Made by a program: the position numbers and the translations under genes. DNA of 64,000 nt from Notoacmeibacter marinus. Lineage in GTDB: Bacteria > Pseudomonadota > Alphaproteobacteria > Rhizobiales > Rhizobiaceae. The stretch covers positions 1,054,001 to 1,118,000 of the forward strand of contig NZ_NBYO01000001.1 of the NCBI RefSeq assembly GCF_002238045.1, written 5' to 3'. The notes under the pieces are model-generated. The model was not told the DNA's origin and searched no databases. It was given only the letters and a program-made list of their open reading frames with translations. This document shows, in pieces, positions 14,922-17,155 of the stretch (positions within the stretch are counted from its first letter, which is position 1; each line of letters begins with the position of its first letter).

Positions 14922-15116
14922 ATGCTCAAGATCACCGCTCTCGTTCATGTCATGACCATGCCCGTTCTCATGGGCATGTTCGTTATCGCGGCGCTCAGCA
15001 TTCCAGAATTCGCCGACAGTCAGGGCATCATTCTGGCTGCGGCGATCGGCTTCGTCGTCGCCATACCGGTGAGCTGGTTCATCGGCTCGCGGATATGGCG
15101 CGCCCGCCGCGCCTGA
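14922..15116 (+). CDS. Small two-helix membrane protein
   Basis: A 64-residue protein consisting almost entirely of two hydrophobic helices (about residues 3-26 and 36-56) and a basic tail WRARRA. It has no catalytic motif. Similar small proteins are common in Rhizobiales, but I cannot assign a role. GGTGAGG lies about eight bases before the ATG at 14922. The frame is open further upstream to 14853, but that segment is arginine/cysteine-rich and unlike the rest. Confidence 0.65.
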   Translation: MLKITALVHVMTMPVLMGMFVIAALSIPEFADSQGIILAAAIGFVVAIPVSWFIGSRIWRARRA

Positions 15117-15235
15117 TACCGATCGATCCGCCGACCCGTCCGCGTTATCGCCGGTGAGGCTGCATCCGCCTCCGGACCGGTTCCGACGCATCTGAAATTG
15201 ACAGGTCGCCGGACCTGCTGCATAAGCGCGCCATC

Positions 15236-15283
15236 ATGATGACGCCGACCCATTCTTCGTCGAAAACGACGACCACGCTCTGA
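15236..15283 (+). CDS. Possible Thr-rich leader peptide upstream of asd
   Basis: A 15-codon frame (MMTPTHSSSKTTTTL) with six threonines, four of them consecutive, ends 81 bases before the asd start codon. Its stop codon directly abuts the left arm of a hairpin. Aspartate-semialdehyde dehydrogenase feeds Thr, Met and Lys synthesis, so a Thr-rich leader makes biological sense. Weak points are the lack of a good ribosome-binding site and the possibility that ACG/ACC runs arise by chance in GC-rich DNA. Confidence 0.35.
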   Translation: MMTPTHSSSKTTTTL

Positions 15284-15317
15284 TCCCTCCTTCCGTGCCT
15301 TCCCGGAAGGGGAGGGA
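15284..15317 (+). promoter_or_regulatory. asd: Hairpin abutting the leader frame, candidate asd attenuator
   Basis: TCCCTCCTTCCG (15284-15295) pairs with the 14-base segment at 15304-15317 over 12 base pairs, with a two-G bulge and an 8-base loop. A ribosome stalled on the Thr codons just upstream would cover the left arm and prevent the hairpin. A ribosome that finishes and leaves would allow it. There is no U-run after the stem, so it is not a standard intrinsic terminator. The regulatory role is inference. Confidence 0.35.
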
Positions 15318-15364
15318 CGGCGCATGTTCAGGATGGAAGGCGGAACAAGGATCGGATCGATACC

Positions 15365-16399
15365 ATGGGTTTCAAGATTGCAGTGGCCGGCGCGACCGGC
15401 AATGTCGGGCGCGAGATGCTCGACATTCTGGAAGAGCGCGGCTTTCCCGCCGACGAGATTGTGCCGCTCGCTTCGCGGCGCTCGATCGGAACGGAAGTAT
15501 CCTATGGCGACAAGACGCTGAAGGTCCGGGCGCTGGAGGATTACGATTTCTCCGATACCGATCTGTGCCTGATGAGCGCCGGCGGCGAGGTTTCCAAGAA
15601 GATGAGCCCGGCCATCGGCAAGGCCGGCTGCATCGTCATCGATAATTCCTCGGCCTGGCGCTACGATTCAGACGTGCCGCTCATCGTCCCCGAGGTGAAC
15701 CCCGATGCAATCGAAGGCTTCCGCAAGAAGAACATCATCGCCAATCCGAACTGCTCGACCGCCCAGCTCGTCGTCGCGCTGAAGCCGCTGCACGACGCCG
15801 CGACCATCAAGCGCATCGTCGTGTCGACCTATCAGTCGGTCTCCGGCGCCGGCAAGGATGGGATGGACGAGCTTTTCAACCAGTCCCGCGCGGTGTTCGT
15901 CTCCGATCCCATCGAAACCAAGAAGTTCACCAAGCGCATCGCCTTCAACGTCATCCCGCATATCGATGTGTTCATGGAAGACGGCTACACCAAGGAAGAG
16001 TGGAAGATCCTCGCCGAAACCAAGAAGATGCTCGACCCGAAGATCAGGGTGACGGCGACGGCGGTGCGCGTACCGGTCTTTGTCGGTCATGCCGAGGCGG
16101 TGAATATCGAATTCGAAAAGCCGATCACGGCAGACGAGGCGCGCGACATCCTGCGCGAGGCGCCGGGCTGTCTCGTCGTCGACAAGCACGAGGATGGCGG
16201 CTACGTCACGCCGCATGAATGCGCCGGCGACGATGCCACCTACATCTCGCGCATCCGCGAGGACGCCACCGTCGAGAACGGCCTGGCGCTATGGGTCGTC
16301 TCGGACAATCTGCGCAAGGGCGCGGCGCTGAACACGATCCAGATCGCCGAGCTGCTCGTCGCCAAAGGGCTGATCCAGCCAAAGAAGCAGGCTGCCTGA
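15365..16399 (+). CDS. asd: Aspartate-semialdehyde dehydrogenase
   Basis: A 344-residue NADPH-dependent enzyme that reduces aspartyl phosphate to aspartate semialdehyde, the branch point for Lys, Thr and Met and for diaminopimelate in the cell wall. The nucleotide loop VAGATGNVGREML lies at the N-terminus. The catalytic cysteine is in NPNCSTAQLVVALKP, and the substrate-binding VPVFVGHAEAVNIEF includes the active-site His. Length is normal. The gene has its own terminator. A possible Thr-rich leader precedes it. dapF, which acts later on the diaminopimelate branch, lies 32 kb away. Confidence 0.97.
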   Translation: MGFKIAVAGATGNVGREMLDILEERGFPADEIVPLASRRSIGTEVSYGDKTLKVRALEDYDFSDTDLCLMSAGGEVSKKMSPAIGKAGCIVIDNSSAWRYDSDVPLIVPEVNPDAIEGFRKKNIIANPNCSTAQLVVALKPLHDAATIKRIVVSTYQSVSGAGKDGMDELFNQSRAVFVSDPIETKKFTKRIAFNVIPHIDVFMEDGYTKEEWKILAETKKMLDPKIRVTATAVRVPVFVGHAEAVNIEFEKPITADEARDILREAPGCLVVDKHEDGGYVTPHECAGDDATYISRIREDATVENGLALWVVSDNLRKGAALNTIQIAELLVAKGLIQPKKQAA

Positions 16400-16431
16400 C
16401 GGCTTGCATCTTCACTGCCGAAGCGCATTTA

Positions 16432-16463
16432 CGGGCGGGACCTGCAACGGTCTCGCCCGTTTT
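16432..16463 (+). terminator. asd: Rho-independent terminator of asd
   Basis: An 11-bp stem with one G-U pair (CGGGCGGGACC at 16432-16442, GGTCTCGCCCG at 16449-16459), a 6-base loop and TTTT follow the asd stop codon by 32 bases. The SDR gene begins 27 bases later. Confidence 0.8.
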
Positions 16464-16489: not shown

Positions 16490-17155
16490 ATGAGCATCCG
16501 CACACTGATCGTCGGCGCTTCGGGCGGCATTGGCGCGGCGCTCGTCGCAAGATGCGGCGACGATGGTGAGGTGGTAACGCTCTCGCGCTCCGCCGACGGT
16601 CTCGATGTCACCGACGAGGCCAGTGTCGAACGGGCGGTCGCGACGCTGGACGGCGCGTTCCAGCGCATGTTCATCACGGTCGGCATTCTGGCGCCGGCGG
16701 GCGGCGAGCCGGAACGGCGGCTGGGCGAGGTGGCGCAGGATGCTCTGGCGCAGCTTTTCGCCGTCAACGCATCCGGGCCGTTGCTCGTCCTCAAACATCT
16801 CGTTCCGTATCTGCCAAAGGGCGAGATTGCGCGCATCGGGGTTTTGTCGGCGCGGGTCGGCTCCATCGGCGATAACGGGATCGGCGGGTGGTATGCCTAC
16901 CGGGCCTCGAAAGCGGCGCTGAACCAGTTCGTCCGTACGGCGGCGATCGAACTGTCGCGCAGCCATCCGAAAAGCATTCTCGCGGCCCTTCATCCCGGCA
17001 CGGTGGCAACGCCCTTCACCGCCGACTATCAGGGCCGGCACAAGACGGTACCGCCCGAGGCCGCGGCGGAAAATCTCGCCCGCGTGCTGGGCGAACTCGC
17101 GCCCGCCGATACGGGATCGTTCAGGGATCAGAACGGCGAAACGGTCGAGTGGTGA
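16490..17155 (+). CDS. Short-chain dehydrogenase/reductase
   Basis: A 221-residue SDR protein. The cofactor loop is LIVGASGGIGAAL at the N-terminus, and the catalytic pair is in YAYRASKAALN (Tyr and Lys four apart), with Ser in the VLSARVGSIGD segment. It is shorter than most SDRs and resembles the CsgA/C-factor-like subgroup. The substrate cannot be read from sequence. It follows asd behind a terminator, so is probably expressed separately, and converges with the M3 peptidase gene. Confidence 0.85.
   Translation: MSIRTLIVGASGGIGAALVARCGDDGEVVTLSRSADGLDVTDEASVERAVATLDGAFQRMFITVGILAPAGGEPERRLGEVAQDALAQLFAVNASGPLLVLKHLVPYLPKGEIARIGVLSARVGSIGDNGIGGWYAYRASKAALNQFVRTAAIELSRSHPKSILAALHPGTVATPFTADYQGRHKTVPPEAAAENLARVLGELAPADTGSFRDQNGETVEW

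Follow-up and report, generated by a model that had tools for sequence, protein, structure and literature searches.

In enteric bacteria, the thrABC operon is preceded by thrL (Rfam Thr_leader), a short leader in front of aspartate-family genes, which contains a run of Thr codons as well as Ile codons, competing helices and an intrinsic terminator. The leader described here, in front of asd of Notoacmeibacter marinus and many of its relatives, resembles thrL in the Thr run and in the competing helices, but it has no U-run, its gene is asd, and it has no Rfam match.

A second system is known from S. meliloti. According to the accessible text of Hadjeras et al. (2023, PMC10117765), SEP5 is a small frame that lies in the 5'-UTR of a gene named there aspartate dehydrogenase and carries, towards its 3' end, six Thr codons and three Lys codons. 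The same text reports its translation by Ribo-seq and by Western analysis of a tagged fusion, and calls it 'possibly a leader peptide' and 'conserved only in Sinorhizobium' (PMC10117765). A preliminary description of our locus had known of no described example in this group, and should be corrected in this respect, since the accessible text shows that SEP5 had already been proposed. We have found three Sinorhizobium loci (L039, L041 and L044) in which the frame before asd ends in SKTTAKTTTKTV followed by the stop codon, with the Thr and Lys count of SEP5. Because the codon counts match, we infer that SEP5 is probably the same leader as the asd leaders of these loci. The SEP5-type arrangement, i.e., a block of Thr and Lys codons just before the stop and ahead of asd, is seen in the leader of our window (the whole stretch of DNA analysed, 64 kb) and in 79 of the 80 best genome_contigs loci out of 581 (L074 is the miss).

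The window form differs from SEP5 in that it has 15 codons with six Thr and one Lys, and is probably near-leaderless. In addition, the accessible account of SEP5 (PMC10117765) is given without RNA structure, whereas competing helices are described for the asd leaders here. The same accessible text also covers trpL / rnTrpL of S. meliloti, a leaderless leader frame and tryptophan attenuator that acts also as an sRNA (PMC10117765). The short leader of the window would be like it in its leaderless start, while the gene and the codons differ. An asd leader is not named in the accessible parts of PMC4117421, PMC1273637, PMC2245857 and PMC4833913, and we have found no other report of one in the open literature; a mention is possible in Vitreschak et al. 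2004 or Lopatovskaya et al. 2010. The leader idea itself was thus already proposed; our analysis adds that it extends across the order, that helices compete behind it, that a terminator is lacking, and that a short, probably near-leaderless form exists.

The Thr-rich frame before asd and its conservation

The first features of the locus are as follows.

15198..15226, + strand: putative promoter (TTGACA, 17 nt, CATAAG), both hexamers unchanged across the genus (three genomes)
15236..15283, + strand: leader peptide frame, MMTPTHSSSKTTTTL and stop, read from the sequence, with six Thr codons, probably near-leaderless
15365..16399, + strand: asd, aspartate-semialdehyde dehydrogenase (NF011456, TIGR01296), the presumed regulated gene

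As the preliminary description had noticed, and as can be read directly in the sequence, a frame of 15 codons precedes asd (ATG ATG ACG CCG ACC CAT TCT TCG TCG AAA ACG ACG ACC ACG CTC TGA). Six of the codons are for Thr, four of them consecutive at 15266-15277, and one is for Lys; 81 bases lie between the leader stop and the asd start. When the 246 nt from 15119 to 15364 were shuffled 5000 times with dinucleotides preserved, such a frame (8-40 codons, at least six Thr, a run of four) appeared in 0 cases, and neither strand of the 64 kb window holds a second one. Genome-wide, the pattern of four Thr codons, one further codon and TGA occurs in 2 copies, of which the second ends a longer open frame elsewhere. 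The locus has one feature of a leader-peptide attenuator of an amino-acid biosynthesis gene, a short upstream frame rich in codons for an end product of the pathway. Of three other aspartate-pathway loci of the same genome, those of homoserine dehydrogenase and threonine synthase have no Thr/Lys-rich short frame, and that of aspartate kinase has one weak frame (MATCSTTSMLRITSKRSPSSASASAVVAR) with a longest Thr run of at most two.

The product of asd scores 517 bits against NF011456 and 455 bits against TIGR01296, both over the cut-off, and also matches PF01118 and PF02774. Shortly 3' of asd, a strong terminator-like hairpin of 12 pairs at 16431-16460 is followed by TTTTCG, and a short-chain dehydrogenase gene starts beyond it at 16490. 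Since this hairpin precedes the next gene, asd may be transcribed alone. Just 5' of the leader region, downstream of a DUF4174 protein, lies a small hydrophobic frame of ~64 residues (14924-15118), with no Pfam or NCBIfam match at E 0.001.

The putative promoter hexamers, TTGACA at 15198-15203 and CATAAG at 15221-15226, would place the transcription start near 15233-15236, almost at the leader ATG. They are absent from the list of a consensus scan, and the second hexamer ends in G, not T. Of 128 leader loci, 115 have TTGAC at a distance of 36-62 nt upstream of a start codon in frame with the leader; any copy of it occurs in 250 of 2560 shuffled 170-nt stretches. A clear ribosome site had been reported as missing at the leader, and this holds; a near-leaderless start would explain the absence. 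The leader is probably translated in this species.

We have compared asd upstream regions at the levels of family, order and class, together with the best 80 of 581 confirmed genome_contigs loci, which include some metagenome bins. A frame was counted if its stop lies 60-170 nt before asd and its last 12 codons hold at least 4 Thr and at least 6 Thr plus Lys. It was found in 3/3 genomes of the genus, in 25/31 of other genera of the family (G004 and G007, with a match not at residue 1, and G008, with distant matches only, are outside this count), in 8/24 of other families of the order (the partial genes of G045 and G050 are outside), in 3/39 from the remaining orders of the class (some 130 further class genomes that had a match are outside), and in 79/80 of the best 80 of 581 genome_contigs loci. 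The controls gave 0/179 on the reverse strand, 3/2467 at random positions of the same loci and 2/1790 after shuffling. With an earlier criterion of at least 5 Thr in the last 15 codons, the numbers were 3/3 for the genus, 22/32 for the family, 11/24 for the order, 2/39 for other orders and 70/80 for the best 80 of 581 genome_contigs loci, and the controls gave 0/139, 5/2467 and 5/1790.

Among the misses, L074 has 3 Thr and 3 Lys in the region of the last 12 codons. In the family, L005, L026, L027, L028 and L149 have a short frame at the same place with 2-3 Thr codons, and no such frame was seen before asd in L016. Relatives that lack the frame or carry frameshifts in it had been named in advance as evidence against a leader; what we observe is that the frame is retained in the genus and, mostly as a longer version, in many genomes of the order. 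In three loci of other orders of the class (L116, L132 and L175) a Thr/Lys-rich frame also stands before asd. In other-order loci such as L118, L119, L128 and L134, a frame ends just before asd and no leader is apparent. This frame reads like the C-terminal end of 3-isopropylmalate dehydrogenase (leuB), and asd seems to follow leuB directly in such loci.

Within the genus, no change is seen in the six Thr codons, in the stop or in either promoter hexamer. The sequences diverge 5' of TTGACA, and are near-identical from CATAAG via the leader and the hairpin behind it until shortly before asd begins. Where the leaders differ, codons other than those for Thr have changed their amino acid, with one Thr gained in G001, and there is no evidence of synonymous change inside the genus, as all shared Thr codons are invariant. 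In a 56-row alignment of long-form leaders, all 160 internal gaps of the leader part are of 3 nt (they recur in few columns, so they are not 160 events), while gaps after the stop are of mixed lengths. Variability there is 0.95 bits at third codon positions, against 0.31 at first and 0.48 at second positions. Since the gaps come in threes and the third positions vary most, the frame appears to be read as codons. Overall, a Thr-rich leader peptide before asd is strongly supported by this comparison, and the leader would most likely serve as a threonine-sensing control element of asd. Of the threonine-sensing leader and attenuator that had been suggested for this site, the Thr-rich leader stands, but the hairpin is not terminator-like here.

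Long and short leader forms

For the 115 loci measured, the median leader length is 39 codons. Long leaders typically end in KTTTKTV and the stop, and their N-terminal half is variable. Counted back from the stop in the 79 genome_contigs frames (from the best 80 of 581), Thr occupies position -6 in 78, -5 in 77 and -2 in 77, and Lys occupies position -7 in 72 and -3 in 70. The idea of Thr sensing agrees with the Thr codons and is to be amended in that the leaders of most relatives carry Lys besides Thr. As both amino acids are products of the pathway, the long leader may sense the two together.

In nine loci (L001-L003, L005, L024, L026-L028 and L149) the leader has 10-15 codons, and its ATG lies 35-39 nt after TTGAC. 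Because this spacing is so small, the short leaders are probably near-leaderless. They retain the stop-proximal block and do not have the N-terminal part. In an asd tree of 93 rows, which is a tree of one gene and does not include L149, and whose automatic count leaves aside 58 long-leader rows, the eight short-leader rows occupy four places as read from the drawn tree: the genus of the window beside L004/L031, L005 beside Chelativorans and Nitratireductor, L024 beside L014, and L026-L028 beside Stappiaceae. Since the short rows sit in four places, separate shortenings of the leader in several lineages are the simplest reading.

Some short leaders have changed further. L028 and L149 have 2 Thr codons, and the endings of L026, L027, L028 and L149 are LTKTSIS, LTKKTSIS, TIKTSIS or TIKTAII, with 2-3 Thr plus Lys, Ile and Ser. 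These four are possibly cases of a shift in the sensed amino acid, or of decay.

Taken as one picture, an order-wide, terminator-free Thr/Lys leader by which the asd start is opened or closed would have been cut independently to a near-leaderless mini-leader that keeps the stop-proximal Thr codons and the RNA switch. We propose this combination tentatively, and rate it slightly below an even chance.

Competing helices behind the leader

The features behind and within the leader that bear on RNA pairing are given below.

15257..15272, + strand: small hairpin in the Ser-Ser-Lys-Thr-Thr codons (UCGUCG-AAAA-CGACGA), predicted by MFE, near-invariant in the genus
15284..15295, + strand: strand M, left hairpin arm directly after the stop codon, which can pair with R1, with R2 or with the asd start region
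15296..15303, + strand: strand L (UGCCUUCC), hairpin loop, complement of R2 by helix search
15304..15317, + strand: strand R1 (CGGAAGGGGAGGGA), right hairpin arm, which can pair with M or L
15335..15343, + strand: strand R2 (GGAAGGCGG), a run of purines 5' of the asd start, which competes for M or L
15347..15356, + strand: putative asd ribosome-binding region AAGGAUCGGA, invariant in the genus

The hairpin 15284-15317 begins at the base after the leader stop, so the frame does end directly against it, as had been described. It has 12 pairs, a 2-nt bulge and -18.2 kcal/mol, and by itself it is nothing unusual for a sequence of this composition, since 107 of 1000 shuffles reach a fold as good. 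The genome contains one copy of it when up to 3 mismatches are allowed, for which reason we have rejected a dispersed palindromic repeat. No family of Rfam 15, including Thr_leader, is found in the window at the gathering score (0 matches), and a search of 12 loci with E up to 1 gave two sub-gathering hits, neither at the leader.

The best contiguous helix between the post-stop region and the 45 nt before asd is UGCCUUCC:GGAAGGCG. Moreover, GGAUCGGA, in the putative asd ribosome-binding region, can pair with UCUGAUCC at 15279-15286, which holds the leader stop codon, and both strands are invariant in the genus. The AAGGA before asd can alternatively pair with M. In G001, the left arm has changed from CUUCC to CUCCC, the right arm from GGAAG to GGGAG, and the R2 copy, 25-30 nt before asd, from GGAAGG to GGGAGG. 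These three linked changes preserve both alternative pairings (a U-A to C-G pair change for M with R1), and the M:R2 pairing in the genus rests on this one joint change.

Across relatives, we have used a swapped-partner test, in which the strands of a locus are paired with each other or with those of another locus (10000 permutations; 33 and 47 thinned representatives of 126 loci). Relatedness is handled by the thinning alone, and the segment windows overlap slightly, so the effects of M and L are not fully separate. The best-supported helix is L:R2, for which 0 and 0 of 10000 permutations were as good (z -6.3 and -5.8 in the two sets). The corresponding numbers are 0 and 0 for L:R1, 7 and 1 for M:R1 (z -3.4 and -4.3), 86 and 2 for leader:M, 27 and 246 for R1:R2, and 236 and 5 for L with the last 20 nt. 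In this test M:R2 is unsupported across relatives (2480 and 4222 of 10000), as is M with the last 20 nt (755 and 1464), and nulls were obtained for leader:L (4720 and 4514) and leader:R1 (6980 and 4912). Earlier versions with other segment borders agreed. The long-range helix is maintained by different letters in different loci, e.g., CCCUCACC:GGUGAGGG, CGCUCUUUCC:GGAAAGGGCG and CGUUUUGCUCUC:GAGAGCAAGACG. Duplex energies over long stretches (own -33.3 versus swapped -32.3, 13 of 5000) were too diffuse, and tests of contiguous helices were used instead.

Inside the leader, relatives have a Thr-codon hairpin near the stop, in which ACG/ACC is swapped with ACC/ACG. The two codons co-exchange between these states in 61 and 28 cases, with 14 other combinations, and pair 39-51 of the A2 alignment is GC in 28 rows, CG in 19 and unpaired in 9, relatedness being included in both counts. 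The register of R1 and R2 differs from clade to clade, and pair counts are therefore limited to the two helices inside or beside the leader. Against 500 shuffles, the cells paired, the cells changed on both sides and the covariation score exceed all, while pairs changed on both sides were as high in 284 of 500 and pair types in 450 of 500. RNAalifold gave no structure on an 80-sequence alignment, and a weak one on A2, which is stronger in one clade (27 rows) and weak in the other 29, owing to this difference in register.

Overall, the locus shows in statistical terms mutually exclusive helices downstream of or overlapping the leader (leader:M, M:R1, L:R1 and L:R2), and competing helices behind the leader are supported by these comparisons.

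Proposed mode of control and alternative explanations

We consider it probable that the leader acts in cis and ties asd expression to charged tRNA-Thr, in most relatives also to tRNA-Lys, through the following mechanism. Transcription would begin almost at the ATG of the 15-codon leader, which would be translated without a Shine-Dalgarno site, and the position of the ribosome on the leader would set the folding of the RNA behind. Strand M may pair with R1 in the local hairpin; alternatively, M and the stop-codon region may pair with R2 and the stretch before asd, which would close the asd start. At low Thr, a ribosome stalled on the final Thr codons would cover the stop-codon region and part of M, leaving the asd start open. 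When Thr is plentiful, the ribosome would terminate and leave, and the RNA could close.

Predicted folding provides the alternatives. With the whole leader free and the M core (five pairs) forced onto R1 versus R2, the energies are -51.4 versus -51.1 kcal/mol in G000, -48.1 versus -48.2 in G002 and -48.7 versus -53.3 in G001. The best unforced folds are of the hairpin type in G000 (-52.4), a third fold with M on the AAGGA before asd in G002 (-50.3), and M on R2 in G001 (-53.3 kcal/mol). Whenever M lies on R2 or on AAGGA, the region of the leader stop codon (UCUGAUCC) is paired as well, with the sequence just ahead of the asd start. Hairpin and closed folds therefore differ by no more than about 2 kcal/mol in two of the genomes and by 5 in the third. 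They compete for M, as a switch would require.

The direction of control is less plain. By footprint geometry, a ribosome on the Thr run would reach the left arm only when it stands on the final one or two codons, whereas one on the stop codon would cover nearly all of it. The earlier suggestion that a ribosome on the Thr codons masks the left arm thus applies to the last codon or two and fails for the earlier Thr codons. If the leader codons are covered while M stays free, each of the three genomes of the genus favours the closed fold, by 6-7 kcal/mol over the hairpin (-37.2 versus -30.8 in G000, -35.9 versus -28.7 in G002, -39.8 versus -32.7 in G001). Because RNA with M free closes, low Thr would open asd only if the stall falls on the last Thr codon or two; otherwise, with an earlier stall, the direction would be reversed. 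In ribosome-masked folding, a stalled ribosome leaves the asd start region more open than a terminating one does in 9/47 loci and less open in 17/47 (threshold 0.05), and over a wider stretch in 7/59 and 19/59. We infer from the logic of the pathway that low Thr should lead to more asd, while folding is mixed or against it. This folding is at equilibrium, without pseudoknots or kinetics, and may be the wrong instrument for direction.

As the hairpin is not followed by a U-run, nor is one conserved in relatives, we expect the leader to act through access to the start site or through Rho more probably than through an intrinsic terminator. Rho-dependent attenuation would use the C-rich stretch after the stop as a Rho entry when it is free of ribosomes, with a held ribosome or an alternative fold blocking Rho, so that asd is transcribed at low Thr. 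The post-stop stretch is indeed C/U-rich (CUCUCC core), the longest T run is at most 3 in 112 of 128 leader loci (L028 being measured on another frame), and this explanation is compatible with the folding results that are at odds with a simple opening of the start. The position of R2, however, is conserved near the asd start, and it pairs with L; this speaks for an effect on the start site. We regard control by Rho as rather unlikely, and control at the asd start would be the preferred reading.

Classical transcription attenuation, with the hairpin (in relatives, the one after it) serving as an intrinsic terminator, would agree with the resemblance of the Thr/Lys codons and competing helices to thr, trp and his leaders, and with a T run of 4-5 somewhere in the stretch in the remaining 16 of 128 loci, e.g., L048 and L049. 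We hold it to be improbable, for a scan listed nothing terminator-like at 15284-15317, and neither the leader region of the window nor those 112 loci have a U-run. The preliminary description had listed the U-run as missing, and it is likewise absent in most relatives. An intrinsic terminator in the window was rejected on these grounds. In the two Brucella loci L048 and L049, a hairpin followed by TTTTT, terminator-like, lies about 34 nt before asd; termination may have been gained or lost locally there.

The leader could also encode a small protein acting in trans, with control of asd being secondary. The accessible text of PMC7298713 reports such a role for peTrpL, the trp leader peptide of S. 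meliloti, and SEP5 was detected as a tagged soluble protein according to that of PMC10117765. The conserved part of our leader, on the other side, is the Thr/Lys block beside the stop, and the N-terminal half varies between genera and is absent in the short forms, which makes a trans-acting peptide improbable. Finally, an accidental Thr-rich frame beside an unrelated hairpin would suit the ordinary hairpin, but given the shuffles without any such frame, the conservation far above three controls and the gaps in threes, its probability is close to nil.

The gene asd makes the precursor common to lysine, threonine, methionine, and diaminopimelate for the cell wall. If the proposed control is true, a leader reading charged tRNA-Thr and tRNA-Lys on asd would be a simple pathway-level feedback, in a large group to which plant symbionts, bacteria of the soil and pathogens of animals belong. 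In the short form, the design comes down to 15 codons plus about 80 nt of RNA, so that it is easy to test, and it would show near-leaderless translation serving amino-acid sensing.
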